29,581 nt of DNA from a virus, in IMG/VR virus record IMGVR_UViG_3300005613_000309, positions 1-29,581 of that record; one strand, written 5' to 3'. The translations under genes and the position numbers were made by a program. The notes beneath the pieces are model-generated. The model ran no database searches. It was not told the DNA's origin and saw only the letters and a list, made by a program, of their open reading frames with translations. This document shows, one piece after another, positions 2,395 to 27,523 of this stretch (position 1 is its first letter; each line of letters starts with the position of its first letter).

Positions 2395-2425
2395 TTAGAA
2401 AAAAAAGTAGTTTATCTATTATATA
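2395..2425 (+). promoter_or_regulatory. Phage promoter-like motif (class I) before the tail operon
   Basis: TTAGAAAA is followed by TCTATTATATA starting exactly 20 nt after the first T, 20 nt upstream of the ATG at 2445. The same two boxes with the same spacing occur at 12016, 16645, 18969 and 27493, and on the minus strand at 23239, always just before a gene. The spacing and position point to a promoter, although the boxes differ from the usual Bacteroidota consensus (TTG and TAnnTTTG). Confidence 0.7.
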
Positions 2426-2444
2426 AAAAAACAAAAAAGAATAT

Positions 2445-3014
2445 ATGAAGTTATTTAACTTAAATGAAAAAGAGTATCAAGTTCCAGAAAGCTGGGAAGA
2501 GATGACACTTAAACTATATGTTAATGTAGCAAAACTTGAAGAGAAGAGAGCAGAATACTTTTTAGGTGAGTTATATTTACTTAAAATTATTGAGGCAATA
2601 TGTGATGCTGAAGATGGTGAATTAGATGAATTAACTTTAGAAGTAGTTAATGATATATCATCTTCACTCCATTTCTTACAAGAACACACAGAATGGCCAA
2701 ATGTAAAGACATTAGAGATTGAAGGAATAACATATGTTTTTCCACAGGATTTAAATAAACTGACAATGGGTGAGTATATTTCTATGAAGACATTTCAAGA
2801 GAACGCAAAATCACAATCAGAAGCAATACCTTATATATTGGCAATTATATTAAGACCAGGTAAATTGGTTCAAGATGGTGAGACAGGAGAAGAGAAATGG
2901 ATACAAGATAAATTCACAGCTAATAATATAGATTATAGAAAAGAGTTATTCTTAAATCAACCTGTTATGGAACTTATGGGGCCAATAGGTTTTTTTTTAG
3001 GTGGGAAGCAATAA
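2445..3014 (+). CDS. Tail assembly chaperone, short form (gpG-like)
   Basis: This is an acidic 189-residue protein starting KLFNLNEKEYQVPESWEEMTL, which resembles the tail-assembly proteins of Bacteroidota phages. Such chaperones coat the tape measure during tail building and usually come in a short form and a frameshifted long form. The gene ends with GFFLGGKQ over a run of nine T (2990-2998), where the -1 frame opens into the next 86 codons. It is the first gene after a class I promoter and heads the tail operon. The chaperone call rests on position, size, acidity and above all the frameshift layout. Confidence 0.75.
   Translation: MKLFNLNEKEYQVPESWEEMTLKLYVNVAKLEEKRAEYFLGELYLLKIIEAICDAEDGELDELTLEVVNDISSSLHFLQEHTEWPNVKTLEIEGITYVFPQDLNKLTMGEYISMKTFQENAKSQSEAIPYILAIILRPGKLVQDGETGEEKWIQDKFTANNIDYRKELFLNQPVMELMGPIGFFLGGKQ
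2990..2999 (+). promoter_or_regulatory. Predicted -1 ribosomal frameshift site
   Basis: In the chaperone frame the codons read GGT TTT TTT TTA GGT. T TTT TTA (2993-2999) is a canonical X XXY YYZ slippery heptamer. The zero-frame stop TAA follows at 3012-3014. The -1 frame is open through the site and on to 3259. The layout matches the conserved G/G-T frameshift of tailed-phage tail chaperones. Confidence 0.85.
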
Positions 3015-3259
3015 TATACAAACAATTTAAAGGATTGTTTAGTAAGAGCTCAAAAGAAGACAACCTGGCTTTAGGTCAAGTAAGTATAGACAAAAGATGG
3101 GGATGGCTGGCAATGGTGGATAGATTAAGTAATGGTGATATAACAAAACACGATGAAATTTATGAAAGAAATTATATAGAATGTTTAAATTTACTTTCAT
3201 ATTGGTATGAAAGAGATAAGTATTTTGAACAACAAAATGAAATAAGAAATAGAAAATAA
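2999..3259 (+). CDS. Tail assembly chaperone, -1 frameshift extension (T part of the G-T fusion)
   Basis: After slippage at TTA (2997-2999) the ribosome would continue with AGG at 2999, reading RWEAIIYKQFKGLFSKSS and so on to a TAA at 3257-3259. That adds 86 residues to 185 from the upstream frame, a fusion of 271. The region has no good independent start: no ATG lies near its beginning and the first usable codon is a TTG at 3035 with no suitable leader. The long form would bridge the tape measure and tail tube subunits during tail polymerisation. The added part is rich in Trp, Tyr and charged residues and looks soluble. Confidence 0.85.
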   Translation, partial: RWEAIIYKQFKGLFSKSSKEDNLALGQVSIDKRWGWLAMVDRLSNGDITKHDEIYERNYIECLNLLSYWYERDKYFEQQNEIRNRK

Positions 3260-3269
3260 ATTCTAAAAA

Positions 3270-4904
3270 ATGGCTAACAACACAGTAAGTATAAATAAAA
3301 TAGTTTCAATATTCCAAGATTTATCTATTAGACAAGAAATGGTTTATGACTTTGGTTATGGACCAGCATATAATATAGGTGCATCAAAGGAAATGAAATT
3401 TCCTTATATATGGATTGAAAACAATAATACAACCACACAGAAATCTGATAATGGTTATAAAGTTAATTTATATACATTTACGATATATTGTATGGATAAA
3501 ATTAACTTCGGAGAGGACAATTATAATGAAATAATATCAGATACTCATTACATTTTAGACACTATGGTTGCTGAAATATCACAACATAAATACTATGTTG
3601 ATATGAATTTATCTATTGATGGTGATATAAACTTTCTGCCAGTAGTAGAAGCAACAGATGACAATGTGAATGGATGGCAATGTGATATAACTATTAAACA
3701 TCCTATTAGATATACTTATTGTAATTCACCGATAGAACCAATTACAGGTTATATTACACAACTAAATAATTCATTTGATGAATATAAATTAGTTGGAGCA
3801 ACGGGACCAACAGGGCCAGCAGGACCAACGGGTGCAACAGGACCAGCGGGTGTTAATGGCGCAACAGGACCAACAGGACCAATTGGCGCAACTGGAAATG
3901 ATGGACCAATAGGACCAACGGGCGCAACTGGACCAGCGGGTGTTAATGGCGCAACAGGACCAACAGAAGGATTATGGAAAACATTAGATATTGGAAATAC
4001 TGCCTCTACATTCATAGATATGATGGATTTTGGTATAACGAATTTAGGTTATAATGATTTTGATTTAAATAATACAATTACAAATACAACAGGTAGATTA
4101 AATTGGAATGATACAGATGGAACATTAGATTTAGGTTTAAAAGGTGGTAATGTGACATTACAAATAGGACAAGAAGAAGTTATAAGAGTAGTTAATAAAA
4201 CTGGTTCAAATTTACTTGAAAGTCAATATAATGTTGTTAGAATAAGAACACAAGCAGAAGGTGGGGCACAAGGACAAAGGTTAGCAGTTTTATTAGCACA
4301 AGCAGATACCAAACCCAACCATTCAGGTATATTGGGTGTTGTTACTGAAAATATTAACAACAATCAAGAAGGTTTTATTACATCATTCGGTGCTGTAAGA
4401 AAAATAAATACAACAGGTTCACTTCAAGGTGAAACTTGGTTAGATGGTGATGACTTATGGTTATCAGATACAGTTGCTGGTGGTTTAACCAATATAGAAC
4501 CAACAACCCACCCAGTAAGAATTGGTTATGTATTGTATTCACATGCAGTAAATGGTAAAATATTTGTATCGTTAGATAATGGTGTTGATGAATTAAATGA
4601 ATTACACGATGTAACAATTACATCACCAATTGGGGGTGATACATTACAATATAATTCAACATTATCTTTATGGGAAAACACAAATCCATTTTTTATAATT
4701 GATTTAATGGATAATTCATCGGTTGAATTTTATGTTGTTCAAGACACTAAAATAAATACAATAACAAATGTTGTTAATTCACCAACTATAACGATAGCTG
4801 ATGATGGAGCACCCTATACTTTAACAAATACTATTTTGACTGGAAGTAAAATAACTGTAACATCTGACATACCAAGTGTTATAAAATTAAATATTGAAGA
4901 GTAA
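3270..4904 (+). CDS. Neck/tail-type N-domain fused to a collagen-like stalk and fibre domain
   Basis: This 544-residue protein has three parts. Residues 1-170 ([41 protein letters not shown]) match a small structural family I know from Bacteroidota phages, probably a tail completion or neck component. Residues 176-232 are 19 uninterrupted Gly-X-Y triplets ([12 protein letters not shown]), a collagen-like trimeric rod. Residues 234-544 are rich in Asn, Thr, Gly and Ile, with beta-type repeats as in phage fibres. I infer a virion protein anchored by its N-terminal domain that projects a fibre through the collagen stalk. Its stop codon overlaps the ATG of the adhesin downstream by one base, so the two are translationally coupled. 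Function is by family resemblance and composition. Confidence 0.65.
3795..3965 (+). repeat. Collagen-type Gly-X-Y coding repeat
   Basis: Nineteen consecutive GGN-containing triplet codon units are built mostly from GGA CCA ACA and GGC GCA ACA. A longer block encoding [15 protein letters not shown] occurs twice (from about 3831 and 3921), which suggests expansion by internal duplication. Such tracts change length by recombination or slippage. Confidence 0.9.
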
Positions 4905-6073
4905 TGGAAAAAAGATATATCAAAGCAATAGACCCAAATAAATGGATAAGACCAGCTGGCTGGTTACAAATGCCAAATATAACCTCTGCTGATAATAAAA
5001 TTGCGATATTACACGCAGTATATGATAATAAAGAAAATACATTCGCATTAAATCAAGGACAAGGAACTTGTAACTGGAATATAGATTGGGGTGACGGAAC
5101 TAATAATAATTATAACGGAACAGGAGTTCAACAAAAATCATATGTTTACTCCGCAACAACATCACCAATATTAGTTGATGAATGGGGTGAAAACTATAAA
5201 CAAGTTTTAATTGTTATAACATATATTTCTGGACCTTTAACTGGTAATTGGAATTTTAGTCCAACTGCGGCTGTTCGTCCAGGAACACCTCAACTTTTAG
5301 AAATTGTATTTAGTTGGAACTCGTTATTTACTAGTAATAGATATATGCCACTACTAAAATCAATTAATATTGTAAAAGGTATTAGTAGTGGTAGTGCAAT
5401 AAATGGTTTTTCTTTTTTTCCAGCATTAGATAATATAAATTTAGATAATATTATTACAAATACAAATACTCAATCTCAAGCATTTCTATCAAATTCAGGT
5501 AAACTTAGTTTAGGTGATTTAAATTGGGATACAACAGGTATTATTACATCATTTTTTAGTGGTTCTAATATTAGAAAAATTGGGGATATAAATTGTCCAA
5601 CAACAACACAAATGGGTTCAATGTTTTTGAATTGTTCTAACTTAACAGAAATAGGGGATATAAATTGCCCTTTATCTACTAATTTAAGTGTAACATTTCA
5701 GAATTGTAAAGAACTAATTTCAATTGGTGATATAACTTTAAGTGCTGGATTAACAACATTATCCTCTGCATTTAGTGGTTGTTATAAATTAAGAAGAATT
5801 GTTTTTTTAAGTGATTTAAGTTCATTAACTACTATCACTTCTACATTTTTAAGTTGTCAATCTTTAGAATATGTTAGATTACCAAATCTTATTATATCGG
5901 TTGTTTTATCAAATGGTAATCTTGAGAGACCAGCAATAATAGATTTATTTAATGATTTAGGAACACCTGGAACAACAAGGATAATAAATATATCAGGTAA
6001 TCCAGGCACTCCTGATTTAACTGCTGCTGATTTATTAATTGCAACATCAAAAAATTGGACGGTTACCTTATAA
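4904..6073 (+). CDS. PKD-like plus BspA-type leucine-rich-repeat tail adhesin
   Basis: Residues ~55-85 hold WNIDWGDGTNNNY and a downstream KSYVYS, the signature of a PKD-type beta-sandwich (WGDGT). Residues ~145-330 hold about five imperfect 23-25-residue units of the kind IGDINCPTTTQMGSMFLNC then SNLTE, typical of BspA/DUF285-like leucine-rich repeats. Both modules are common in surface adhesins of Bacteroidota and their phages. Placed just after a collagen-stalked fibre protein and inside the tail operon, this is a good candidate for the receptor-binding tip. No signal peptide is visible, consistent with a virion protein. The ATG overlaps the preceding TAA in a TAATG arrangement. Confidence 0.65.
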   Translation: MEKRYIKAIDPNKWIRPAGWLQMPNITSADNKIAILHAVYDNKENTFALNQGQGTCNWNIDWGDGTNNNYNGTGVQQKSYVYSATTSPILVDEWGENYKQVLIVITYISGPLTGNWNFSPTAAVRPGTPQLLEIVFSWNSLFTSNRYMPLLKSINIVKGISSGSAINGFSFFPALDNINLDNIITNTNTQSQAFLSNSGKLSLGDLNWDTTGIITSFFSGSNIRKIGDINCPTTTQMGSMFLNCSNLTEIGDINCPLSTNLSVTFQNCKELISIGDITLSAGLTTLSSAFSGCYKLRRIVFLSDLSSLTTITSTFLSCQSLEYVRLPNLIISVVLSNGNLERPAIIDLFNDLGTPGTTRIINISGNPGTPDLTAADLLIATSKNWTVTL

Positions 6074-6091
6074 ATATAAAATAAAAAAAAT

Positions 6092-6250
6092 ATGGAAAAT
6101 ACAAGTGGGTTTTATAAGTGGGATGAAGAGCAATGGTTTTATGCACCAAATGCTGTTTATGCACCAACATACACATTACTGAAAGAATTAAAAGATACTT
6201 ATGAATATCCAGTTGATGGATGGAGTTGGTATGACGAACAACCTGGATAA
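6092..6250 (+). CDS. Small aromatic-rich protein in the tail operon
   Basis: This is a 52-residue reading frame from ATG 6092 to TAA 6250 with an A-rich leader. It is rich in Trp and Tyr: GFYKWDEEQWFYAPN near the start and GWSWYDEQPG at the end. It fills the gap between the adhesin and the next structural gene, and coding-like composition supports a real gene. WYD-type small proteins of this kind accompany fibre genes in Bacteroidota phages. I know no function. Confidence 0.6.
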   Translation: MENTSGFYKWDEEQWFYAPNAVYAPTYTLLKELKDTYEYPVDGWSWYDEQPG

Positions 6251-6265
6251 AAAAATATTTAAATT

Positions 6266-7175: not shown

Positions 7176-7183
7176 AAAATTAA

Positions 7184-12015: not shown

Positions 12016-12046
12016 TTAGAAAAAATAATAGTTTATCTATTATATA
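12016..12046 (+). promoter_or_regulatory. Phage promoter-like motif (class I) before fibre and tape measure
   Basis: TTAGAAAA with TCTATTATATA beginning exactly 20 nt after it, 17 nt upstream of ATG 12063. The sequence is nearly identical to 2395-2425, including the flanking AGTTTA and trailing AAAAAA. Confidence 0.7.
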
Positions 12047-12062: not shown

Positions 12063-13196
12063 ATGCCGTTAATTACACAAGAAAGTAGAATATCACATCA
12101 CACATTATATGGTTCAGCATCAGCAACTTTTTCAATACCACCATCAGAAGATTTCACAGATGGTTCATGGAATATAAACGGAACAGAACTTGCTTTAAGT
12201 GAGATTGGTGTTAATGAGGATGCTGGACTAGCTTATATTAGAATAGGTAGTGATATAAAACAATTTCAATTATACGGTTCCACATCATCAGCAAATACGC
12301 TATTTGATACTTTAGTTGCTGGTAATACAACAGGACCTAATTTTATTGATGTAGATAGTGGATATGGATTACAAGCAATAGATACTATTAATAATATAAC
12401 AGATACTATAATACTTGACCCAGAAGTATTATCAAATGGAACAGGTATATTTTCAACTGATGGAACTGATATTGGACAAGTAATAGTAAATAAAACATCA
12501 GTAGGTCTTGAAGCAAATGATGGAAGTGGTTATGCCGCTGCTAGTTTAAAAACAAGTCCATCATACCAATTCGCTGTTGAAGTAACAGATGGAACTGATA
12601 TAACAACTGAAACAATAACTACAACACAATGGAATGCACAGGCATTTGATGGTATAAGTAACGCATCAAACATTTTTATACAACCTACACAAATTAACCT
12701 ACAAACAACTGATACAATTGAAAATGCAAATGTTGTTATTAATTCAAATCAGTTGTATTTAGAGGCGACTGATGGAACAGACCAGGGTTTAATACAGATA
12801 TCAAAAAACAGTGTATTGATACAAACAATTAATGATAATCCAGTAACAATTCAAGAGTTACAAATTTACACAACAAATATTACAACAACAAACAATACGG
12901 TAACAACAGTATTTACTTATCCAGTAGGAGGAACAAATGGAGGAATAAATGTTAATTGTAGAATTCAATGTTCAAATTCTACATTCACACAGGCGTATAT
13001 TGCTAACTTATTCGCTGGATTTTTATATGACGGAACATCAATAACTCAAATATCAACGACCGATAAGGTAGAAAAGACAACATTAGTAGGGGCTACTTCG
13101 GATATAACATTTACAGGAACGGACTTAATTGTAACCGTAACAGGTTTAGTAGCAACTACAATTAAGTGGAAAATAAATATAGAAATATTATCATAA
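12063..13196 (+). CDS. Tail fibre-like structural protein with beta repeats
   Basis: A 377-residue protein made of short beta-type units rich in Thr, Asn, Ile and Gly, for example VDSGYGLQAIDT, NGTGIFSTDGTDIGQ, ATDGTDQGLIQISKNSV. DGTD recurs at least four times. A C-terminal segment (NCRIQCSNSTFTQAYIANLFAGFLYDG) looks like a globular tip. Phage fibres have this composition. It comes directly after a promoter and one base before the tape measure start, so it is probably expressed with it. The fibre call rests on composition and position. Confidence 0.55.
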   Translation: MPLITQESRISHHTLYGSASATFSIPPSEDFTDGSWNINGTELALSEIGVNEDAGLAYIRIGSDIKQFQLYGSTSSANTLFDTLVAGNTTGPNFIDVDSGYGLQAIDTINNITDTIILDPEVLSNGTGIFSTDGTDIGQVIVNKTSVGLEANDGSGYAAASLKTSPSYQFAVEVTDGTDITTETITTTQWNAQAFDGISNASNIFIQPTQINLQTTDTIENANVVINSNQLYLEATDGTDQGLIQISKNSVLIQTINDNPVTIQELQIYTTNITTTNNTVTTVFTYPVGGTNGGINVNCRIQCSNSTFTQAYIANLFAGFLYDGTSITQISTTDKVEKTTLVGATSDITFTGTDLIVTVTGLVATTIKWKINIEILS

Positions 13197-16644: not shown

Positions 16645-16675
16645 TTAGAAAAGTTAATACTATATCTATTATAGT
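16645..16675 (+). promoter_or_regulatory. Phage promoter-like motif (class I) before scaffold and capsid
   Basis: TTAGAAAA with TCTATTATAGT starting exactly 20 nt after it, 23 nt upstream of ATG 16698. It would give the scaffold, capsid and tail-tube genes their own strong start, ending at the terminator at 18933. Confidence 0.65.
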
Positions 16676-16697: not shown

Positions 16698-17285
16698 ATG
16701 AATAAAAAAGAGTTAATTGATAAAATCAAGACACAATTAAAATCATTAGTAACATCGGAGTTTAAATTCGCTGAAAAAAAATCTGGTGATAAATTAATAA
16801 TCACACCAGATGAAGAATTTGTAATCAATTCTGAAGTATTCTACAGAGATGAAGAAGGAAATAATATTCCACTTTTAGATGGAGATTATACATTTGATGA
16901 TGGTGTTAAGATAGTTGTAGTAGCTGGTAAAATTAAAGAAATGGTTGAACCAAGTGCTGAATTAGAAGAAGAGGAAAAAATTGATGATGTTGAAGTAGAA
17001 GCGGCTGAGGAAGAAGTAGAGGATGAAAAAGATGAAATGAAAAAAGTAATGGAACGATTAGTTAAATGTGAAGAGATGATTTCTAAAATGGAAAAAAGAT
17101 TTGGTGAAGTTATGGAAGAAAATCAGAAAATGAAGCAAGAATTTTCTAAAATATCTGAACAACCATCAACAACAAAAATTGAAGCATCAGTTACAGAGTT
17201 CAAATCATTAGAAGATAAAACAAGTTCAATTAATAGTGTAGATATTATAGCTATTAGAGAAAAGGCAAGAAAAAACAATAGGTAA
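16698..17285 (+). CDS. Capsid scaffold-like protein
   Basis: The 195-residue protein has a small N-terminal beta domain (about 20-75, KLIITPDEEFVINSEVFYRDE), a very acidic stretch (~85-115, rich in Glu), then a coiled coil (~112-150, MKKVMERLVKCEEMISKMEKRF). Such acidic, helical proteins between a protease and the major capsid gene are usually scaffolds, removed by the protease during maturation. No catalytic motif is visible. The assignment rests on composition and gene order. Confidence 0.65.
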   Translation: MNKKELIDKIKTQLKSLVTSEFKFAEKKSGDKLIITPDEEFVINSEVFYRDEEGNNIPLLDGDYTFDDGVKIVVVAGKIKEMVEPSAELEEEEKIDDVEVEAAEEEVEDEKDEMKKVMERLVKCEEMISKMEKRFGEVMEENQKMKQEFSKISEQPSTTKIEASVTEFKSLEDKTSSINSVDIIAIREKARKNNR

Positions 17286-17312: not shown

Positions 17313-18266
17313 ATGGCAACATTAAATTTAGGAAGTTTAACAAAATATACAGACCAATTATCTGGAATTTTATTAAAAGAAGCAGTTTTAGTTGGAAATA
17401 CTTTTGATTACATTTCAGTTCAATCTGGAATTAAATTCGCAGATAGTATTAATATACTAAACAATACATTAACAGCAGTAGCTGGTGGATGTGGCGCAAT
17501 ATCACCAACGGGTTCAACAACTCTTACACAAAGAAATATTACGGTATGTCCAATTAAAATAGAGGAGAGCATCTGTGTAGATGAATTTGAACAGTATTGG
17601 ATTGGACAATTAGCAAAAGAAGGTTCTTACAACGAATTCGCACCAGAAGCATTTAACCAATTATACTTAGCTAATAAAGTTGAAAAAGTAGGACAATTAG
17701 TAGAAGACCTTTTCTGGAAAGGCGACACAGGTGGTAATTATGGTTCAGGTAATTTATTATTATGTGATGGAATTTTAGAAATTCTTGAAAACACATCAGC
17801 AACATCTTCAGTAATCAGCACAACTTATTCAGGAGCATTCACAACAGCGAACGCATTAGACATCGTTGATGATATGATTTCTTTAATACCTAATGATGTA
17901 TTAGATACAAATGATTTAACGCTTTTTGTTTCACATACAAACTTTAGAGTGTTGATGAATGCTTTAAGAAACAATAACTATTTCTTTGGATATGATGGAG
18001 TTCAAGGACACACTTGGGTTTTAGATAATTATACTAACACTAATGTTAGAATTGTAGCAACAAGAGGTCTTAACGGAAGAAACGAAGCGGTTTTAACACC
18101 AGCTTCTAACTTATTCTTTGGAACAGATAGCTTTGGTGAAGCAAGAAATGGAGATGGGTTCCAATTCTGGTATGATATTAGAGACAACATTACTTACTTT
18201 AGAGCTAAGTTAAAAGTTGGTGCTCAAGTAGCATTTCCACAATATGTAGTTATTAAAAACTCATAA
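17313..18266 (+). CDS. Major capsid protein
   Basis: The 317-residue protein starts ATLNLGSLTKYTDQLSGILLKEAVL and contains CPIKIEESICVDEFEQYW, VEDLFWKGDT and a C-terminal FRAKLKVGAQVAFPQYVV. This is the pattern of HK97-fold major capsid proteins in Bacteroidota siphophages. Its place right after protease and scaffold and its own promoter fit. Codon choice here includes more C-ending codons (AAC, TTC, GAC) than in neighbouring genes, as for a highly expressed gene. The structured hairpin at 18278-18320 separates it from the tail-tube gene. Confidence 0.88.
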   Translation: MATLNLGSLTKYTDQLSGILLKEAVLVGNTFDYISVQSGIKFADSINILNNTLTAVAGGCGAISPTGSTTLTQRNITVCPIKIEESICVDEFEQYWIGQLAKEGSYNEFAPEAFNQLYLANKVEKVGQLVEDLFWKGDTGGNYGSGNLLLCDGILEILENTSATSSVISTTYSGAFTTANALDIVDDMISLIPNDVLDTNDLTLFVSHTNFRVLMNALRNNNYFFGYDGVQGHTWVLDNYTNTNVRIVATRGLNGRNEAVLTPASNLFFGTDSFGEARNGDGFQFWYDIRDNITYFRAKLKVGAQVAFPQYVVIKNS

Positions 18267-18968: not shown

Positions 18969-18999
18969 TTAGAAAAAATACAAAAATGTCTATTATATA
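18969..18999 (+). promoter_or_regulatory. Phage promoter-like motif (class I) before the portal unit
   Basis: TTAGAAAA with TCTATTATATA beginning exactly 20 nt after it, 15 nt upstream of ATG 19014 and directly after the terminator. It should drive the unit from 19014 through the portal to the holin-like gene. Confidence 0.68.
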
Positions 19000-19013: not shown

Positions 19014-19271
19014 ATGAATATAAAATTAAAAAAACAATATATCAACACAGAAATATATGTTCCATTTGAAAATAGAAATATATTAGGTAAATTTATTGAT
19101 GCAAGATTATATGTGTATATGTATAAAAAATACCCAGATTTTTTTGATTTAACATGTGATAGATGTTTAGAAACAAAATGTAAATGTAAAAAAAATAAAC
19201 AAACTGATGATATATATATCAACAACGCAAAGTCAAAAAGTGGTTCTGACTTTATCGGAGAAGGTAAGTAA
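19014..19271 (+). CDS. Small Cys-containing protein of the head module
   Basis: An 85-residue basic protein, MNIKLKKQYINTEIYVPFENRN, with a C-terminal Cys cluster, CDRCLETKCKCKK, that could bind a metal ion. Small proteins with the same IKLKKQYI start occur beside head-tail genes in Bacteroidota phages as I recall, with no known role. It is the first gene after a promoter and overlaps the next gene by 65 nt. That long overlap suggests either coupling or a later start for the next gene. Confidence 0.65.
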   Translation: MNIKLKKQYINTEIYVPFENRNILGKFIDARLYVYMYKKYPDFFDLTCDRCLETKCKCKKNKQTDDIYINNAKSKSGSDFIGEGK

Positions 19272-19625: not shown

Positions 19626-20750
19626 ATGGAAAAAGAAGACAAAAATAAAATACAATTTTTAATTCAAAACTTTAGTTCGTCTAACGCGCCTCAATATGTA
19701 GAAAAAGTATCAAGAGCTGGTTATATATTTTATGGAGAGGATAATTTATATCCAGATTATTTAATTTCATTAATGAATAGAAGTGCTAAACACAATGCTA
19801 TTCTTAAAAGAAAGGCAATGATGATTGGTGGAAATGGATGGAATTTAGATGGATTAGATGGAATAGCAAATCAATTTATAGCAAATCCTTATAATGAATT
19901 ATCATTAAATGATATAGTTTTTAGAACATCATATGATTTAGAATTATTTGGAGCATTCGCCATAGAAATAATTTATTCAAAAGATAGAACTAAAATAGCA
20001 GAGATTAATTATTTACCAGCAAATAAAATAAGAGTTTCTGATTGTAAAAAATATATTTATTATTCAGATGACTGGTCAAATACTAGAAAATATACACCAG
20101 TTAAAAAACCAATTTATAATCCTAAAAATCCAATAGCATCACAAATACTTTATATTAAAGAATATAGACCAGGTTCTGAAACTTACGGACAACCAGAATA
20201 TCTACCATGTGTAAATTATATTGATTTAGAATATTCAATTTCTTTATTTCATAAAAATCAAGTTGATAATGGCTTCGCACCATCTATGACTATTACATTT
20301 AATAATGGTATTCCTTCTGATGATGAAATGCGTAATGTTATTAGACAATTACAAACAGATTATGAAGGAGCTACAAAGGCGGGTAAAGTTATGTTTTTAT
20401 TCGCAGATGGTAAAGATAGTGCCCCTGAAATTACACCAGTTCAATTGGGTGATACAGATGAAAGGTTTATTGAATTAAATAAAGAAATTACACAAGGTAT
20501 TTTAACAGGACATTCTGTAACAAATCCTGGTATATTCGGTGTGAATACACCAGGAGAAATGGGTCAAAAAAGTATTATATTGGAAAGTTTAGAGATGTTC
20601 CAATCAATGTATATAAATCCAAAACAACAATTAGTAGAAGCAGTTTATAATAAATTATTAAGATTTAATAATTCTTCTACAAAATTAGTGTTAAATAAAT
20701 ATAAATTAGATATAGAAAAAATAACTGAAGGCGATGGCGATGGATTATAA
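19626..20750 (+). CDS. Portal protein
   Basis: The 374-residue protein has features of PBSX/HK97-type portals: YGEDNLYPDYLISLMNRSAKH (~36-56), AMMIGGNGW, a central FRTSYDLELFGAFAIEIIY, YLPANKIRVSD, a helical stem region (SIILESLEMFQSMYINPKQQ) and a C-terminal wing. It would form the ring through which DNA passes and to which terminase docks. The portal normally follows terL; here it is about 17 kb away and downstream of the capsid gene. It overlaps the connector gene by 17 nt. Confidence 0.83.
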   Translation: MEKEDKNKIQFLIQNFSSSNAPQYVEKVSRAGYIFYGEDNLYPDYLISLMNRSAKHNAILKRKAMMIGGNGWNLDGLDGIANQFIANPYNELSLNDIVFRTSYDLELFGAFAIEIIYSKDRTKIAEINYLPANKIRVSDCKKYIYYSDDWSNTRKYTPVKKPIYNPKNPIASQILYIKEYRPGSETYGQPEYLPCVNYIDLEYSISLFHKNQVDNGFAPSMTITFNNGIPSDDEMRNVIRQLQTDYEGATKAGKVMFLFADGKDSAPEITPVQLGDTDERFIELNKEITQGILTGHSVTNPGIFGVNTPGEMGQKSIILESLEMFQSMYINPKQQLVEAVYNKLLRFNNSSTKLVLNKYKLDIEKITEGDGDGL

Positions 20751-21303
20751 ATTATTCATAACAAGTAATTATGTGTTTAAAATGAGTGTTATTGAAAGCA
20801 ATGTTGATGTTGATTTGATACAAAAATTCATTTGGAAAGCACAAGACCTTAATATACAATCAGTATTAGGTCAAAATTTATATCAAAAATTGATAAATGA
20901 CTGTCCGAATTTCACAGGTTTTTATCAACAGCTGATGATACAATATGTTCAACCAGCATTATGTGAATGGGTTGTATATCATTCACTACCATTTATAAAC
21001 TTTAGATTAACAAATAAAGCTGTAAGTCAAAAGTCATCTGATAATTCACAACCTACAGCAACAGATGATATAAAGTGGTTAAGAGACCAAGTTAGAAATA
21101 ATGCTGAATTTTATAATGAAAGAACTAGAGATTTTATTAAAAACAATCCAACAGAATTTCCAGAGTTTTATCAAAATTCACTTTCATTTGAGATTAAACC
21201 AAATAAATCAAATTATTTTTCAGGTATTGCTACAACAGGTAGAAAGTTTAAAGGTCCATTACCTCCACTTGGTAACATAGACCCATGTGAGTTCTGTGAT
21301 TAA
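20734..21303 (+). CDS. Head-tail connector (DUF6712-like)
   Basis: A 189-residue helical protein: LFITSNYVFKMSVIESNVD, then IWKAQDLNIQSVLGQNLYQKL, YVQPALCEWVVYHSLPFINFRLTNKAV and a C-terminal Pro-rich CEFCD. It matches the head-tail connector family that follows portals in Bacteroidota phages. It would attach under the portal ring. It overlaps the portal gene and is followed by the small membrane-protein genes. Confidence 0.72.
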   Translation: MAMDYKLFITSNYVFKMSVIESNVDVDLIQKFIWKAQDLNIQSVLGQNLYQKLINDCPNFTGFYQQLMIQYVQPALCEWVVYHSLPFINFRLTNKAVSQKSSDNSQPTATDDIKWLRDQVRNNAEFYNERTRDFIKNNPTEFPEFYQNSLSFEIKPNKSNYFSGIATTGRKFKGPLPPLGNIDPCEFCD

Positions 21304-21317
21304 AAAATATAATTCAT

Positions 21318-21443
21318 ATGAATAAGAAGAAAAGAGGAAACTACAAAACTAAAAATGTTATACTATTATCTAAAATCATTAAGGATGATAAATTAGAAGA
21401 AGATAAAGATAAAAAAGATAAAGATAAAAATGGAAATGATTAA
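21318..21443 (+). CDS. Small very basic/acidic charged protein
   Basis: A 41-codon frame from ATG 21318 to TAA 21443: a basic start (NKKKRGNYKTKNVI) and a Lys/Asp-rich tail (EEDKDKKDKDKNGND). It has an A-rich leader, fills the gap after the connector and overlaps the next gene by 14 nt, the same linkage as other pairs here. Function unknown; low complexity makes the call uncertain. Confidence 0.45.
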   Translation: MNKKKRGNYKTKNVILLSKIIKDDKLEEDKDKKDKDKNGND

Positions 21444-21696: not shown

Positions 21697-21873
21697 ATGA
21701 AGAGAATTTACAAAGAAGGATTGATAACAACAATATTAGGATTAGGAATAATAATTTTTTCAGGAGCATTAATATGGACAGGTAAATCTGATGCTTCAAG
21801 TCTTAGTGGATGGCTTGCTTTAGGTATTTTATTTTTAAGAAGTAAAGATAGTTTAATTGGACTTGGGAATTAA
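21697..21873 (+). CDS. Small two-helix membrane protein (holin-like)
   Basis: A 58-residue frame from ATG 21697 to TAA 21873. Two hydrophobic helices (~8-28, LITTILGLGIIIFSGALIW; ~39-51, LSGWLALGILFLR) are joined by a short polar turn, ending RSKDSLIGLGN. Small proteins with this RSKDSLIGL ending are common in Bacteroidota phages in my recollection and are usually called holin-like. It starts three bases after the previous stop and ends the rightward head unit, where it faces the convergent minus-strand nuclease gene. Confidence 0.62.
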   Translation: MKRIYKEGLITTILGLGIIIFSGALIWTGKSDASSLSGWLALGILFLRSKDSLIGLGN

Positions 21874-21913
21874 CACATCTATATTAAGGATAAAATATTC
21901 TTAACTAAAGAGA

Positions 21914-22408
21914 TTAAACTTTTATATTCCAACATTTAAGTTTAGGTATTTTATATAACTTAAACAAATGTTTATATTTATATCTATTTATTAAATAACC
22001 TTTAACTTTTCCAGCATCACCACTCTGTGTGGTATATCTAAAATATTCTTGATTAGTTATTAATAATTCTTTAAGTTTTTTAACTGAAATCAGGTAAGCT
22101 TCTTCAAAATCAGGTAAAAAATAAACAAAAACATCAGCTTCAGTTCTTGAAATACCAGAAGGTTTATTATTACAACTAGTTTCAATAAACATATTATTTG
22201 TTTTAACACCTTTAAAATGTTCATATCTATCAGTTTTAACTTCAAAAGTAATCCTCTTACAATATATCTCACTTATAATATCATATTTATAATCATTATT
22301 AAAACCAATTATATCAAAATTCTTTGTTTCTTTTAAGTAGAAAGCAAATACTCTTTCACCTAATTCGCCATCTTTCAGGTCTTTCTTAAACTTTTCGTAA
22401 TAATCCAT
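21914..22408 (-). CDS. PD-(D/E)XK-type nuclease
   Basis: The 164-residue protein has the layout of a PD-(D/E)XK endonuclease. An N-terminal helix has GELGERVFAFYL (E15/E18). KYDIISE gives the active-site Asp (D43), and TFEVKTDRYEHF gives the E-x-K pair (E56, K58). The following NNMFIETSCNNKPSGISRTEADVFVYF is typical of small RecB-like or Holliday-junction-resolvase-like phage nucleases. Likely roles are in phage DNA recombination, replication or degradation of host DNA. It is transcribed leftward behind a promoter element shared with 24530-24577. Confidence 0.7.
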   Translation of the reverse strand: MDYYEKFKKDLKDGELGERVFAFYLKETKNFDIIGFNNDYKYDIISEIYCKRITFEVKTDRYEHFKGVKTNNMFIETSCNNKPSGISRTEADVFVYFLPDFEEAYLISVKKLKELLITNQEYFRYTTQSGDAGKVKGYLINRYKYKHLFKLYKIPKLKCWNIKV

Positions 22409-22484: not shown

Positions 22485-22494
22485 GGTGCTTTAG

Positions 22495-23193
22495 TTAAGA
22501 ATATTTTATCCTTAATATAGATGTGTTAAATTCTATATTATTTTCAATAAATACAGATTTTATTTTTTCAACAAAAGTATTAGCTTGAGGTGTTCCTTTT
22601 TTATATGGAACTTGTTTAGGTAATAATTTTCTAGTGAAACCATCATTACTTTTTAACCAGAAAACATATTCATCAAATGAATAAGAACCAAAATGATTAT
22701 ATCTTTTATAACCATCAATATATCCAGATGTAATAGCTTGGTCTATTACATATATTTCTTCATCAATAACTACAGGTGGTTTTTGTATAGATATTAATTG
22801 AGCCTGCCTTATTGGTGTTTTTCTTATTGGTTGAGTTATTGGTTTTTCAATAACTATTTGACGGACAAATACCATATCATTTACTCTTTTTTCTATACGA
22901 TTAAGTCGTCCAATTAAATCAGCACAACATTTCATAAAGAAATTATAAAGTAAATTATATTGATTAAATAATTGATTAAAATTATTATCATTTTTAGATT
23001 GATAAATTTGTATAAAATCATATACATTCATAACAAGTTCATTTAGTGAAACAAGATGAGGTCCAATATAAACCATTAACTCTTCATAATCTATTTGAGG
23101 TGATTGGTTTATAATTTGACTTATAGTAGAGCAATAACCATTTACTTCAACACTTATACTATCATCTTGGATGCAATTATTTCTAACAATCAT
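22495..23193 (-). CDS. Unknown protein, 232 residues
   Basis: I do not recognise this protein. The N-terminal ~110 residues are helical and hydrophobic in pattern (SQIINQSPQIDYEELMVYI, LVMNVYDFIQIYQSK, LYNFFMKCCADLIGRLNRIEKRV). A Pro/Gln linker follows (~115-140, EKPITQPIRKTPIRQAQLIS), then a mixed C-terminal domain (IDEEIYVIDQAITSGYIDGY, FDEYVFWLKSNDGFTRKLLP). No membrane segment or catalytic motif is clear. It is the only gene on the minus strand with a class I promoter, so it should be expressed with the structural genes. The linker between helical and mixed domains would suit an adaptor or DNA-binding protein. Confidence 0.6.
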   Translation of the reverse strand: MIVRNNCIQDDSISVEVNGYCSTISQIINQSPQIDYEELMVYIGPHLVSLNELVMNVYDFIQIYQSKNDNNFNQLFNQYNLLYNFFMKCCADLIGRLNRIEKRVNDMVFVRQIVIEKPITQPIRKTPIRQAQLISIQKPPVVIDEEIYVIDQAITSGYIDGYKRYNHFGSYSFDEYVFWLKSNDGFTRKLLPKQVPYKKGTPQANTFVEKIKSVFIENNIEFNTSILRIKYS

Positions 23194-23208: not shown

Positions 23209-23239
23209 TATATAATAGATAAATTAGTAATTTTTCTAA
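23209..23239 (-). promoter_or_regulatory. Phage promoter-like motif (class I) on the minus strand
   Basis: Reading the minus strand from 23239: TTAGAAAA, with TCTATTATATA beginning exactly 20 nt later (23219-23209), 16 nt before the ATG at 23193. Its presence in the opposite orientation, still pointing at a gene, is strong support that the motif is a promoter. Confidence 0.7.
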
Positions 23240-23259
23240 ATATAATAAATTAGTTTATC

Positions 23260-23288
23260 AAAGTAAGAAACAGATGTATGATATATAT
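23260..23288 (+). repeat. 29-bp dispersed repeat, copy 2
   Basis: Identical to 2338-2366 over 29 bases, same orientation, also leading into AT-only sequence. It includes one TAAGAAAC unit (23264-23271), the same 8-mer found at 23443 and 23466. Confidence 0.85.
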
Positions 23289-23442: not shown

Positions 23443-23492
23443 TAAGAAACTTTATATATAGAATATAAGAAACTTAATTAAAAGTCAGAAAC
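23443..23492 (+). repeat. Iteron-like direct repeats TAAGAAAC
   Basis: TAAGAAAC lies at 23443-23450 and 23466-23473 and a variant, TCAGAAAC, at 23485-23492, spaced 23 and 19 nt apart (about two helical turns). A fourth copy is in the 29-bp repeat at 23264 and a fifth at 2342. Regular spacing suggests sites for a protein binding one face of the DNA. Confidence 0.5.
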
Positions 23493-23510
23493 ATTAAAAA
23501 AATAAAGAAT

Positions 23511-24533
23511 ATGATTATACCAAAAGAATTACATTATCTTTTGAATTTACAAAAGAGAAAAGACGCAAAGAATAAAATAAAGAAAGTATATAATGCACTT
23601 TTATATAAAAGGGGTAATAATAAAAATTATTTTGACTGCCCATCTTCTTATTTAAAGAAAGTTTCAGGACAATATAATTCTGTTACTAAATTATTATTAG
23701 AACATAAAATAATAGATTTTCAATCATTTAATTATGATGAAAAAGATTTATTTAATATAAGAAGAAAGAAATATTATAATACAGAAACTGGAAATTGTAT
23801 CAGATATAAGTTTTTAATAGACACAGAGGATGGTTATGAAGATAATTTAAATTTAAATTTTAATAACTTATATGATAATGAAAAATGGTATATGAAAACT
23901 AGATATTCATTATTACAATTAGGATTTCAACCTGATGAATTAAATATTAAAAGAGATAATTTTTCAAGAAGATTACACACTAACATAACAGGTAATATAG
24001 GAGATGGTGGTTCTTACAGAGACCTTTTATTTGGTGGTGAATACTGGACTATTGATGCGAAAACATGCCAACCCAGATTATTATGGTTACATCTTAAAGA
24101 TATTGGATTACAAGATGATAAACTAAATGAAATATTTGAAGGTGGGTTGGATTTTTATGATTACATTATAAAAAGAATACCAGCAATTAATAATAGAGAT
24201 GAAGCAAAAGAATTATTTACATCTTGGGTTAATGGCACAGGTTATTTAGATGGTGATAAAACATCAATAAGAGATATATTTTCAACAGCAAATACATTTT
24301 TAAGAAAGTATAAAACAAATAATTATAAAAATGTATGTAGATTATTACAATATAAAGAAGCAAGCATATTTATTGATGACTTACTTAATAATGTTCCAGT
24401 TGATTTTTGTTTAACTATTCACGATAGTTTAGTTGTTAAAAAAAATGATTTAGAATTAGTTTATAATTGGTGTATAGAAAAATACCCAGAACTTATATTT
24501 GATAAAGAAGAGATAAGCAGAAAAGTTCTATAA
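23511..24533 (+). CDS. Minimal family-A DNA polymerase-like (palm) protein
   Basis: The 340-residue protein shows the core motifs of family-A polymerases in the right order. Motif A is YWTIDAKTCQPRLLWL (D182), next to RRLHTNITGN (~153-162). A motif B-like helix is RDEAKELFTSWVNG (R229, K233). Then comes CRLLQYKEASIFIDDLL (Q280), like the QGTAAD helix, and motif C is LTIHDSLVV (H304, D305). There is no exonuclease domain and the N-terminal ~150 residues are unrelated to Pol I; part (SSYLKKVSGQYNSVTKLLLEHKIID) could be a winged helix. It is the only recognisable replication gene and lies beside the candidate origin. It could be a small polymerase, a primase-polymerase-like enzyme or a replication initiator. 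The motifs are clear; activity is inferred. Confidence 0.65.
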   Translation: MIIPKELHYLLNLQKRKDAKNKIKKVYNALLYKRGNNKNYFDCPSSYLKKVSGQYNSVTKLLLEHKIIDFQSFNYDEKDLFNIRRKKYYNTETGNCIRYKFLIDTEDGYEDNLNLNFNNLYDNEKWYMKTRYSLLQLGFQPDELNIKRDNFSRRLHTNITGNIGDGGSYRDLLFGGEYWTIDAKTCQPRLLWLHLKDIGLQDDKLNEIFEGGLDFYDYIIKRIPAINNRDEAKELFTSWVNGTGYLDGDKTSIRDIFSTANTFLRKYKTNNYKNVCRLLQYKEASIFIDDLLNNVPVDFCLTIHDSLVVKKNDLELVYNWCIEKYPELIFDKEEISRKVL

Positions 24534-24577
24534 AAAATCCACCTTTGAGAAAAATGATTTTTAGAACATAATATATA
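24530..24577 (+). promoter_or_regulatory. Class II promoter/operator before the small-gene cluster
   Basis: ATAAAAAATCCACCTTT (24530-24546) overlaps the polymerase stop codon. It is followed by GAGAAAAATGA, then TTTTTAGAACATAATATATA ending at 24577, 25 nt before ATG 24603. The second half recurs with one mismatch in 27 at 26514-26540, and the 17-nt first half recurs inverted at 22468-22484. Confidence 0.65.
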
Positions 24578-24582
24578 TAGTA

Positions 24583-24617
24583 TAAAAAAAAAAGAAAAGA
24601 ATATGGTAAAAGAAAAA
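24583..24617 (+). repeat. 35-bp leader-and-start repeat, copy 1
   Basis: A-rich leader plus ATG GTA AAA GAA AAA; identical to 24816-24850. It covers the ribosome-binding leader and the first five codons of two consecutive small genes, so a small gene or its leader has been duplicated. Confidence 0.85.
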
Positions 24618-24815
24618 AACAAACTAGAATTAATTAATTTTATTGATAATTTGAAAGATACATTTTTCAAAAAATTAGATAAAAATCAAGAATTAAAACT
24701 AAAAAATTTAAGAAAAAAATATATTTATAAAGATATATCAGTAGCAGATTTTATTGAAGATGTAAAGTATTTAAAGAAAGTTGATGATGACATAAAATGG
24801 AGTTATTATTATTAA
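24603..24815 (+). CDS. Small charged helical protein
   Basis: A 70-residue Lys-rich protein (VKEKNKLELINFIDNLKDTF, SVADFIEDVKYLKKVDDDI) predicted to be helical and cytosolic. It is the first gene of the cluster after a class II promoter. It shares its leader and first five codons with the next gene. Function unknown. Confidence 0.6.
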   Translation: MVKEKNKLELINFIDNLKDTFFKKLDKNQELKLKNLRKKYIYKDISVADFIEDVKYLKKVDDDIKWSYYY

Positions 24816-24850
24816 TAAAAAAAAAAGAAAAGAATATGGTAAAAGAAAAA
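24816..24850 (+). repeat. 35-bp leader-and-start repeat, copy 2
   Basis: Identical to 24583-24617; it sets the start of the following gene at ATG 24836. Confidence 0.85.
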
Positions 24851-24988
24851 GACAAATTAAAAATTAAAGAAAAAATATTACAATTAAATTTCTATATGGT
24901 GACAGCGATAGATATTCATGATGAGATGAGTGTTCAAGAGATAAGAAAAGAAATATCGGAATTAATAAAATTATATTTTGAAAGATGA
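24836..24988 (+). CDS. Small charged helical protein, paralogue-like start
   Basis: A 50-residue helical protein (VKEKDKLKIKEKILQLNFYM, SVQEIRKEISELIKLYFER). I choose ATG 24836 over the in-frame ATG 24797 because 24836 has the same A-rich leader and first five codons as the gene before it, while 24797 lies inside that gene. Its stop overlaps the next ATG by 4 nt. Function unknown. Confidence 0.6.
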   Translation: MVKEKDKLKIKEKILQLNFYMVTAIDIHDEMSVQEIRKEISELIKLYFER

Positions 24989-25338
24989 TAAAATGTAAAA
25001 AATGTTTAGATTTAAAAGAAGAAAAGTATTTTTATAAAAATAAAGATAATACTTATAAAAAAACTTGTAAATGGTGTTTAGGAGTTAAAAATCCAGATAA
25101 AAAAAATAAAAAAAGGATTATAAAATATACAATTGATACAAAAAAACCATCAAAAAAAGAATTAGTTTCATTTATTAATGAAATGAATTATAAATGTGGA
25201 TATTTTGACTTTTTAGATTGCTTAAGATTAGTAGATATATTTACAAGAAAAAATGGAATTATATCTACAAAACTTTCTATGGAGGATGAATTAATGTATA
25301 TGTGGTTAGAATTAAAAAAGAGTAGTTTATCTATATAA
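24985..25338 (+). CDS. Zinc-ribbon-like small protein
   Basis: The 117-residue basic protein starts with KCKKCLDLKEEKYFYKN and TCKWCLG, two CxxC pairs about 24 residues apart that would bind one zinc ion. The rest is helical (KKELVSFINEMNYKCGYFDFLDCLRLVD, LSMEDELMYMWLELK). Short proteins with this CxxC-LxxKxxxxFYK pattern are frequent in phages, with a presumed nucleic-acid-binding role. The ATG overlaps the preceding TGA. Confidence 0.65.
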   Translation: MIKCKKCLDLKEEKYFYKNKDNTYKKTCKWCLGVKNPDKKNKKRIIKYTIDTKKPSKKELVSFINEMNYKCGYFDFLDCLRLVDIFTRKNGIISTKLSMEDELMYMWLELKKSSLSI

Positions 25339-25340
25339 AA
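25326..25340 (+). promoter_or_regulatory. Weak class I-like box before 25353
   Basis: AGTTTATCTATATAAAAAA resembles the class I downstream box but lacks two bases, and there is no TTAG box at the 20-nt spacing. It overlaps the end of the previous gene. Possibly a weak internal promoter. Confidence 0.3.
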
Positions 25341-25352
25341 AAAATAATCATT

Positions 25353-25733
25353 ATGAAATTATTAGAAGTTAGAGAAGAAATAAATATTCGTTTAAAATAT
25401 TTACCAGATTGGATAGACAATAAAAGTCCGAAACATAAGAAAGTATGGAATTTAATAGAAAGTTGTCATGATGCACTTTTTCTTTTGATAGTTAATGTAA
25501 TTTTAACAGATAAATCAATATACAAAATAATTGATTTATTTGATGAATATATTGAAAATATGTGCTTATTAATGGATAATGAATTACAAATACTAACTAA
25601 TTTATATTTTTTATCAGTATTAGAATATATGATTTTAATTTGTTTAGAAAATGAAGAGTATGAGGCAGCAAATAATCTAAAAATATTTAAAAATATATAT
25701 TTTGAAAACATAAATTCTAAAAATGAATACTAA
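25353..25733 (+). CDS. Unknown helical protein
   Basis: A 126-residue acidic, strongly helical protein (EVREEINIRLKYLPDWIDNK, SCHDALFLLIVNVILTDKSI, LTNLYFLSVLEYMILICLEN). Hydrophobic stretches are interrupted by charges and look like buried helices, not membrane spans. It overlaps the sigma-like gene by 11 nt. I do not recognise a family. Confidence 0.55.
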   Translation: MKLLEVREEINIRLKYLPDWIDNKSPKHKKVWNLIESCHDALFLLIVNVILTDKSIYKIIDLFDEYIENMCLLMDNELQILTNLYFLSVLEYMILICLENEEYEAANNLKIFKNIYFENINSKNEY

Positions 25734-26250
25734 AAATGATTTAATACTTTATATATGGAATAAAAAAGAAATAATATTATATTGTAAATCAGTTGGTAAA
25801 AATAAATGGGAAGAATTAAGAAGCGATTTAATTATGCAATTATATAAAATGGATTTTAATAAATTACTTATGGCATATAATAATAATTATTTAGAATATA
25901 CATGCTTTACAATATGTAGTAGAATAAAAAAGGGTAAAGTTCCAGACACAGGATTATTTTATCAACAGCGTTCAGTTAATTTAGAGATAGATGAAGAATA
26001 TAAATATGATATAGAAGATAAAAACCAAGATATTACAGAATTATATAATAAATTCCTAACTTTAGTTGATGAGCAACACTGGTATAATAAAACATTATTT
26101 AAACATTATTATATTGAAGGACTTAAATTAAGAGAAATAAGTGAATTATATAATATAAATATTAAAAGCATTCATTACGCAATTGAGAAGGTTAAGTGTG
26201 AAATAAAAAAACAAATAGAAGATGATAACAATACTTTTTTCTGGGATTAA
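25723..26250 (+). CDS. Sigma-factor-like helix-turn-helix protein (transcription regulator candidate)
   Basis: A 175-residue protein. The N-terminal ~70 residues (NKKEIILYCKSVGKNKWEELRSDLIMQLYKM, with YLEYTCFTICSRIK further on) have the arrangement of sigma region 2. A linker follows, then ~130-165 (WYNKTLFKHYYIEGLKLREISELYNINIKSIHYAIEKVK) is a clear region-4-type helix-turn-helix. Similar proteins are common in Bacteroidota phages and are annotated as sigma-like or RNA polymerase-associated. It may direct host RNA polymerase to the phage promoters repeated in this genome. It overlaps the next gene by 29 nt. The fold call is good; the role is inferred. Confidence 0.65.
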   Translation: MNTKNDLILYIWNKKEIILYCKSVGKNKWEELRSDLIMQLYKMDFNKLLMAYNNNYLEYTCFTICSRIKKGKVPDTGLFYQQRSVNLEIDEEYKYDIEDKNQDITELYNKFLTLVDEQHWYNKTLFKHYYIEGLKLREISELYNINIKSIHYAIEKVKCEIKKQIEDDNNTFFWD

Positions 26251-26491
26251 AATATTCCTTTTAAGTTGGATGATTACAAGATTTCAACCAATACAAATGT
26301 TAATGGAGATATTACCAGATAAATTAATATACAACCTTATTAAATTATTACTAACCTGTTTAATGTGTGTTAGTTTCTGGAGTAGTTTATTGATAACTGG
26401 TAATATATTTGTAGCATCAGGAGTGGCCTTCGTAGGTTTCTGGTATGATAAGATAATCGGATTTTATGAGAATAGAGTTAGATTAAGATAA
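26222..26491 (+). CDS. Small integral membrane protein
   Basis: An 89-residue protein with two or three hydrophobic helices (IKLLLTCLMCVSFWSSLLI and NIFVASGVAFVGFWYDKIIGF) and a basic C-terminus. An in-frame ATG at 26270 gives ITRFQPIQMLMEILPDKL, a start I associate with similar small proteins in Bacteroidota phages, and may be the true one. Role unknown; holin or superinfection exclusion are possible. Confidence 0.6.
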   Translation: MITILFSGIKIFLLSWMITRFQPIQMLMEILPDKLIYNLIKLLLTCLMCVSFWSSLLITGNIFVASGVAFVGFWYDKIIGFYENRVRLR

Positions 26492-26504
26492 CCATAAAAA
26501 ACCG

Positions 26505-26540
26505 GAGTAGAAAAAAATGACTTTTAGAACATAATATATA
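26505..26540 (+). promoter_or_regulatory. Class II promoter before 26559
   Basis: GAGTAGAAAAAAATGA followed by CTTTTAGAACATAATATATA, matching 24551-24577 with one mismatch over 27 bases (26514-26540), 18 nt before the ATG. The 17-nt ATAAAAAATCCACCTTT element is replaced here by CATAAAAAACCGGAGTAG. Confidence 0.62.
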
Positions 26541-26558
26541 AAAGAAAAACAAAAGAAT

Positions 26559-26756
26559 ATGGGAGAAAAAGAAGTTTATTTAGAGAGTGGTTTTAGTTAT
26601 ACGGTTAAACTAAAGCAAATCAAAGGAAAGAATTACACAGAATTTACGGTGTTTTATCATGATATAGAAATATATTGCTCTACAATTACATGGAGAGTAA
26701 ATACTGAAATACTATTTGTAAAAATATGTGTTGAATTTTCACAAAATAGTTATTAA
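26559..26756 (+). CDS. Small predicted beta-rich protein
   Basis: A 65-residue protein (EVYLESGFSYTVKLKQIKGK, YTEFTVFYHDIEIYC, WRVNTEILFVKICVEF) that looks like a small beta barrel or sheet. It follows a class II promoter with an A-rich leader. No family recognised. Confidence 0.55.
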   Translation: MGEKEVYLESGFSYTVKLKQIKGKNYTEFTVFYHDIEIYCSTITWRVNTEILFVKICVEFSQNSY

Positions 26757-26759
26757 GAT

Positions 26760-27035
26760 ATGAAAGACATAAGAGAACTTATGAAGAAACAATTAGTGAT
26801 TGACCCTTCAATAGAATTAGAAAACACATTAGATGAATTAGTAAGAAACTTTAAGATTAAGATTATATCTTTTTCTGACGATGAAACTATACTTACAAAT
26901 TTATATTACACAATGAAGATATATTTTTCTGACGCAATAGTAGATGATATATTAAAAAGTTGTTTAGATAAAGCAGCTGAACCTATTTTAATCGCAGGAC
27001 TTAGAAACAAAAAAATAAAAAAATTAGGATTATGA
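26760..27035 (+). CDS. Small helical protein, unknown
   Basis: A 91-residue mostly helical protein (DIRELMKKQLVIDPSIELEN, LTNLYYTMKIYFSDAIVDDI) with a basic C-terminus. It starts 3 nt after the previous stop and overlaps the next gene by 4 nt, so it belongs to the same unit. No family recognised. Confidence 0.55.
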   Translation: MKDIRELMKKQLVIDPSIELENTLDELVRNFKIKIISFSDDETILTNLYYTMKIYFSDAIVDDILKSCLDKAAEPILIAGLRNKKIKKLGL

Positions 27036-27247
27036 CAGAAGATTTTAAGAAATGGTGGATACACTATGTAACAAGTCAAACACCAGAAGGTTATTTTTAT
27101 CTACCTTTAGAACCAAAAAACATTAATGATATGACACCAGAAGAATTTGATTTATTAGATGCTTCTGAATGGACAATGGAATGTGAAAATCCATATGGTA
27201 TAACATATTTTATATGTAAAAAAATAGAAAAAAAAGAATATGAGTAA
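27032..27247 (+). CDS. Small acidic protein, unknown
   Basis: A 71-residue acidic protein (EDFKKWWIHYVTSQTPEGYF, MTPEEFDLLDASEWTMECEN). The MTPEEFDLLDASEW segment is a short helical signature I cannot assign. It overlaps both neighbours (4 and 8 nt), indicating tight translational coupling. An early host-takeover role would suit size and place but is only a guess. Confidence 0.55.
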   Translation: MTEDFKKWWIHYVTSQTPEGYFYLPLEPKNINDMTPEEFDLLDASEWTMECENPYGITYFICKKIEKKEYE

Positions 27248-27491
27248 GAAAAAACAATTAGACCCAGATAGAATGTTTAGTGTAGAAGATAAAAATGAGA
27301 TTTTAAGATTGTTTAGAGTGGCTGTGGCGACACAAACAGATATGGATAGTATATATCACCTTTACAAGAAATATATTAACCCACGAGCAATTATGTATCA
27401 AATAAATTGTAAATGCCATACATCAATATCAAATTATTATCAAACACTTTTAGATTATTATAGTGATAACGGGGAAAAATTTGAGAATTGA
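27240..27491 (+). CDS. Small regulatory-type protein, unknown
   Basis: An 83-residue protein (SKKKQLDPDRMFSVEDKNEILRLFRVAVA, YHLYKKYINPRAIMYQINC, KCHTSISNYYQTLLDYY). Helical, with a stretch resembling a small DNA-binding helical bundle but no certain helix-turn-helix. It ends the small-gene cluster one base before the promoter motif of the methyltransferase. Confidence 0.55.
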   Translation: MSKKKQLDPDRMFSVEDKNEILRLFRVAVATQTDMDSIYHLYKKYINPRAIMYQINCKCHTSISNYYQTLLDYYSDNGEKFEN

Positions 27492-27492
27492 T

Positions 27493-27523
27493 TTGGAAAA
27501 ATAGATTATTAATCTATTATAGT
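27493..27523 (+). promoter_or_regulatory. Phage promoter-like motif (class I variant) before the methyltransferase
   Basis: TTGGAAAA (one change from TTAGAAAA) with TCTATTATAGT beginning exactly 20 nt after it. The gene starts 50 nt further on, a longer leader than at the other sites (15-23 nt). The leader contains GTAATACCGGTGTAAAATAC, with a small ACCGGT palindrome. Confidence 0.6.

Follow-up and report, generated by a model that had tools for sequence, protein, structure and literature searches.

A sigma-like protein and six putative bipartite late promoters in a phage that probably infects Bacteroidota

The enterobacterial phage 7-11 encodes a sigma factor, SaPh711_gp47, that redirects the host's RNA polymerase to a two-part consensus ahead of late genes; its early promoters use the host's sigma factor (PMC8948821). 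Phage 7-11 and its diverged relative phiEco32 have promoters at similar genome positions, with a different consensus (PMC8948821). The sigma factor of phiEco32, gp36, has six middle or late promoters, and their consensus (tAATGTAtA) is a single element with no -35 box, which was attributed to the missing homology to sigma region 4 (PMC8948821). In the Bacteroidota, the housekeeping consensus is TTTG/TAnnTTTG, and the TTTG of the -7 box is nearly invariant in Flavobacterium johnsoniae (PMC6847099).

In a partial search of the literature, we found no phage-encoded late sigma factor in Bacteroidota. Phage transcription in Bacteroidota is poorly known, and E. coli promoters fail in these bacteria. 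Here we describe a candidate late sigma/promoter pair from IMG/VR record IMGVR_UViG_3300005613_000309. (The window, which is the whole stretch of DNA that we analyzed, is 29,581 nt.) Like phage 7-11, this phage has a sigma-like protein and a bipartite motif ahead of late genes, and the positions of the motif are kept across diverged relatives. Unlike phage 7-11, it is of Bacteroidota type, is about 30 kb, uses other sequences, has relatives with three related motif types, and is known from sequence alone. Six promoters per phage sigma factor would match phiEco32, but our phage has both boxes and a sigma4-like domain. Most likely, the logic of 7-11 and phiEco32 also operates in this new lineage, whose sigma/promoter pairs have diverged into a natural series.

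The window ends with an exact 123-nt terminal repeat, so the record is very likely complete and circular, with 29,458 bp. The gene set is that of a tailed phage, with an MTase across the circular junction, a ParB-like protein, TerS, TerL, a maturation-protease-like protein (15848), a capsid-like protein (17313), and a portal protein (19626). By its length and place, 13198 is presumed to be the tape measure gene. The host is probably a member of the Bacteroidota, for three reasons. On bacterial contigs, almost every one of the nearest TerL relatives carries the label Bacteroidota; among phage records, TerL is best matched by phages of Parabacteroides, Bacteroides, and Flavobacterium; and one relative (G006) has host-type promoter sites, which are described below.

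The original prediction was that a two-box motif with an invariant 20-nt spacing occurs at 2395, 12016, 16645, 18969, and 27493 on the plus strand and at 23239 on the minus strand. We found all six sites, at these coordinates and on these strands. The motif is TT[AG]GAAAA followed by TCTATTATA. The predicted spacing holds exactly if it is counted from start to start, that is, with 12 nt between the boxes; a pattern search with a gap of 18-22 nt between the boxes gave no match in the window. The upstream box is TTAGAAAA at five of the six sites and TTGGAAAA only at 27493. The sites were predicted to lie 15-50 nt ahead of start codons, and we measured 14-49 nt at all six, counting from where the 11-nt second box ends to start codons at 2445, 12063, 16698, 19014, and 27573 (plus strand) and 23193 (minus strand). 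The features that we discuss are:

2395..2423, plus strand: proposed late promoter 1, TTAGAAAA-N12-TCTATTATA, ahead of 2445-3014 and just past TerL; it has orthologues in G001, G002, L002, and group B
12016..12044, plus strand: proposed late promoter 2, ahead of 12063-13196 and the presumed tape measure gene
16645..16673, plus strand: proposed late promoter 3, ahead of 16698-17285 and the presumed major capsid gene (17313-18266)
18969..18997, plus strand: proposed late promoter 4, ahead of 19014-19271 and the portal gene (19626-20750)
23211..23239, minus strand: proposed late promoter 5, ahead of the minus-strand gene 23193-22495
27493..27521, plus strand: proposed late promoter 6, with TTGGAAAA, ahead of the MTase/ParB/TerS/TerL block that spans the circular junction
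25723..26250, plus strand: sigma-70/ECF-like protein of 175 amino acids, sigma2-like at residues 4-69 and sigma4-like at 104-168, proposed reader of the six promoters
23511..27491, plus strand: presumed early/middle block, which contains the sigma gene, with no late motif ahead of it or inside it
24556..24577, plus strand: candidate early/middle promoter motif, copy 1, GA[CT]TTTTAGAAC[AT]TAATATATA, ahead of 24603
26519..26540, plus strand: candidate early/middle promoter motif, copy 2, ahead of 26559

The motif is far beyond chance: in order-2 shuffles, 0.01 matches per genome are expected, versus 6 observed. A matrix built from the six sites gives them scores of 32.4-41.2 bits, and the seventh-best place in the window scores 5.7. 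In 100 Markov shuffles, the maximum score averaged 5.5, and the highest was 18.0. Of the eight occurrences of CTATTATA in the window, six have the upstream box. For pairs of TTRGAAA and CTATTAT, we examined start-to-start spacings of 10-31 and found a single spacing (21). The original prediction was to be given up if the motif were equally frequent inside coding sequence; instead, all six sites are intergenic, and none lies in coding sequence on its own strand. (The site at 27493 starts immediately after the stop codon of 27240-27491.)

A motif scan of related phages, as the original prediction proposed, found the sites again at the orthologous places, and both the boxes and their spacing are preserved. 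For the two genomes with near-full coverage, G001 has six sites, all orthologous, and G002 has seven, namely one at each of these six places and one ahead of its 15848 orthologue. (G009 has this extra site as well.) All fragments together contain 40 distinct related sites, not counting one site in L014, which we omitted because it is only distantly related and single. The sequence is TCTATTAT at 33 of these sites and TATATTAT at the other 7, the gap is 12 nt in every case, and 38 of the 40 were assigned to the same seven genes. Proposed late promoter 5 travels with its minus-strand gene: in L102, that gene is on the same strand as the portal gene. We also scanned viral contigs beyond the relatives for the exact pattern and found matches at 73 unrelated loci. 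We rejected these as true sites because all 73 are single copies and 64 are inside ORFs, so they look like chance matches.

The two boxes could also be RNA-level signals, such as hairpins, processing sites, or terminator elements. At 16645 and 27493, the spacer and second box pair over 8 bp, which is beyond what is seen for shuffled spacers (P = 0.018 and 0.006). We rejected a hairpin reading since four of the six sites have no significant pairing. Furthermore, in relatives, the letters of the spacer vary freely while its length is fixed, and a search of Rfam gave no match. We consider RNA-level signals to be extremely unlikely.

The motif is common to the late genes and absent ahead of the early genes, where lateness was judged from gene content. 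We infer the words "late" and "promoter" from position, gene content, and conservation. That the sites would form a dedicated late-promoter set, as originally proposed, is well supported by their conservation at orthologous late genes, by their absence from the regulatory/replication cluster, and by their covariation with the phage-encoded sigma-like protein, which the original prediction did not mention.

The proposed reader, 25723-26250, matches the sigma70-ECF model TIGR02937 over residues 21-164 (E = 4e-5). We call it sigma-like because its 23.3 bits are under the curated cut-off of 42.9. All 12 homologues that we examined match TIGR02937. The window's protein scores under the curated cut-offs of single sigma families; for instance, 6 of 7 members match Pfam's Sigma70_r4_2, and the window's protein is under the cut-off. 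For several homologues, the closest named cellular families by profile are ECF sigma factors of Bacteroidota (TIGR02985 and the GFO_1088 family), with matches under the family cut-offs; SM6 is a motif ascribed to ECF sigma factors.

AlphaFold models have two helical domains with a low-confidence linker between them (for 25723-26250, pLDDT 76 and pTM 0.46, which is moderate confidence). Foldseek's lists are headed by sigma factors, with ECF types first, and contain no match with E ≤ 0.001. By VIA-align, the sigma4 part aligns with sigma4 domains over 60-75 residues, with Z of 9-11 and rmsd of about 2 Å, so the protein has the sigma4 helix-turn-helix fold. The sigma2 region is spanned by the TIGR02937 alignment and is helical in the model, with no separate match to a Pfam region 2 family; rows from a second look with VIA-align mostly cover residues 96-174. 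The sigma2 assignment is weaker than the sigma4 assignment. We found no relatives of the sigma-like protein in the phage collection, and the sigma profile found no homologue in the stretches of bacterial contigs that carry the nearest relatives of TerL.

Another explanation is that a dimeric phage regulator, an activator or repressor that acts on nearby host promoters, uses the sites as operators. The boxes are separated by about two helical turns, which suits a dimer, and the early block encodes other conserved small proteins. However, the two boxes are neither repeats nor inverted repeats of one another, and the second box is TA-rich, -10-like, and at promoter distance from the start codons. 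Also, every sufficiently complete relative that we examined encodes the two-domain sigma-like protein. Operators are very unlikely, in our view. Small proteins that are present in all clades (26222-26491 and 27240-27491) could contribute too. The first of these has hydrophobic stretches, and its gene overlaps the end of the sigma gene; it is a candidate holin or sigma partner. We did not identify an anti-sigma partner.

We think that the six sites are very probably bipartite late promoters that are read by the host's core RNA polymerase together with the sigma-like protein. We infer transcription from these sites, its timing, and the binding of the sigma-like protein. In this model, the host's holoenzyme would first transcribe the 23511-27491 block, so that the sigma gene is expressed. 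The phage's sigma-like protein would then join the host's RNA polymerase core and bind the six sites, which would be promoters of the -35/-10 type: the helix-turn-helix of sigma4 would recognize TTAGAAAA, and sigma2 would recognize and melt TCTATTATA. This would turn on the packaging, head, and tail genes as well as the minus-strand unit. If transcripts start as close to the -10 box as they do in the host (4-5 nt below it), then they would be almost leaderless at several sites in relatives, such as G002 12604 and G006 28044.

Across relatives, the motif and the sigma-like protein covary. In clade A genomes, whose sigma-like proteins are 68-77% identical to the window's, the motif is TCTATTATA. 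In group B (45-55% identical), TATATTATA is found at the same genes, with four sites in G018, two in G020, and one in G004; G019, a group B fragment, has no exact site and one shifted near-match. In clade C (G006 and G021, 27-31% identical), the motif, defined with fixed gaps, is TGATAA-N13-TATATTTA, with three and four copies. These precede the equivalents of 2445, 16698, and 19014, and in G021, of 6693 as well. G005 and G022 (24-27% identical) have TATATTTA without a clear upstream box, and the motifs of clade D are poorly defined. No genome has another type's motif (shuffles predict about 0.03 per genome or less).

The portal proteins of G018 and G002 are equally close to the window's (81% each), and their TerL proteins are similarly close (73% and 76%). 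Yet G018's sigma-like protein is just 55% identical to the window's, instead of 68% for G002, and its motif is of the TA type. By this comparison, which includes few genomes per clade and few group B sites per genome and is uncorrected for kinship, the motif tracks the sigma-like protein more than it tracks the rest of the genome. Shared ancestry accounts for some of the covariation, because the motif and the sigma gene are both vertically inherited. A and B mostly share the recognition helix of sigma4 (IN[IL]KS[IV]), along with TTAGAAAA; in clade C, this helix is NAVSRSV, alongside TGATAA. In the tree of sigma-like proteins, clade A is weakly supported (0.68) and group B is a grade, so the TC form of the late motif is probably derived.

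Alternatively, the host's primary sigma factor (sigma-ABfr) might read the sites as variants of its -33/-7 promoters, and the phage's sigma-like protein might have another role. The boxes TTTA/G and TATTATA are spaced nearly as in the host's consensus, and clade C's second box, TATATTTA, is one base off TAnnTTTG (PMC6847099). A/T-rich leaders that lack a Shine-Dalgarno sequence are another resemblance to sigma-ABfr promoters. However, the second boxes of clade A (TCTATTATA) and group B (TATATTATA) lack TTTG, and the boxes of both groups depart from the housekeeping consensus TTTG/TAnnTTTG. As the original prediction noted, the motif differs from the usual consensus of the Bacteroidota. The motif type also follows the phage's sigma-like protein more closely than it follows other parts of the genome. 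Finally, G006 has separate host-type sites: six divergent TTTG/TTAG-N20-TATCTTTG/A sites, at about 19764-21350 (on the contig's reverse complement; loci L113/L114), are clustered apart from the late genes and fit the Bacteroidota housekeeping promoter well. Overall, reading by the host's sigma factor is unlikely.

Returning to the phage's sigma-like protein as the reader, we lean towards the view that in a family of small Bacteroidota phages, an ECF-like sigma factor and all of its late promoters shifted together, yielding at least three specificities, including the change of a single -10 letter (C/A) at every late site. This gives a concrete candidate sigma/promoter pair and a predicted temporal program for one lineage of Bacteroidota phages. 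Because related clades have diverged promoters at the same genes, how residues of the sigma factor read bases is directly testable. The pairs are possibly orthogonal, and if so, they could provide expression tools for Bacteroidota.

Within the 23511-27491 block, a second motif, GA[CT]TTTTAGAAC[AT]TAATATATA with small variants, is found ahead of genes. There are two copies in the window, four in G001, four in G002, and two in G018. Unlike the late motif, this motif does not change from clade A to G018 (group B); it may represent a class of early or middle promoters. A scan for host-type sites (TTG/TAnnTTTG) did not reveal the window's own early promoter, because all such sites are antisense within genes. 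A scan for sigma70-type promoters (TTGACA/TATAAT) found 93 matches, versus 74.5 ± 9 in shuffles, and is of little use because the DNA is AT-rich.

The block's first protein, 23511-24533, looks polymerase-like by eye, and single-subunit phage polymerases use promoters of fixed length, so a phage-encoded RNA polymerase might read the sites instead of the sigma-directed host enzyme. However, a family search with this protein gave no polymerase family, and it has no BLAST-detectable homologue in G002, although G002 keeps the motif. We give this idea hardly any credence.

We also noticed other features of the genome. The MTase gene (27573-29579 and 1-487, across the circular junction) has two extra stretches, at 28157-28627 and 29135-29566, that by eye contain HNH-like ORFs in another frame and do not interrupt the MTase frame. 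In relatives, the MTase matches omit the first of these stretches (query about 200 to 351). Just past proposed late promoter 6, at 27525-27545, is TAATACCGG[CT]G, which is conserved in G001, G002, and L002 and also precedes the MTase of G005, a genome without late promoter 6. This is a candidate packaging site or RNA element. A perfect 41-nt inverted repeat (21870-21910 and 22489-22529), which we did not find in G001 or G002, brackets the minus-strand gene 21914-22408 and extends into the end of 22495-23193; the segment between the repeats is possibly invertible or mobile. Lastly, the repeat AAAGTAAGAAACAGATGTATGATATATAT lies upstream of proposed late promoter 1 (2337-2366) and upstream of the early block (23259-23288), and GTAAGAAAC recurs shortly ahead of gene 23511.
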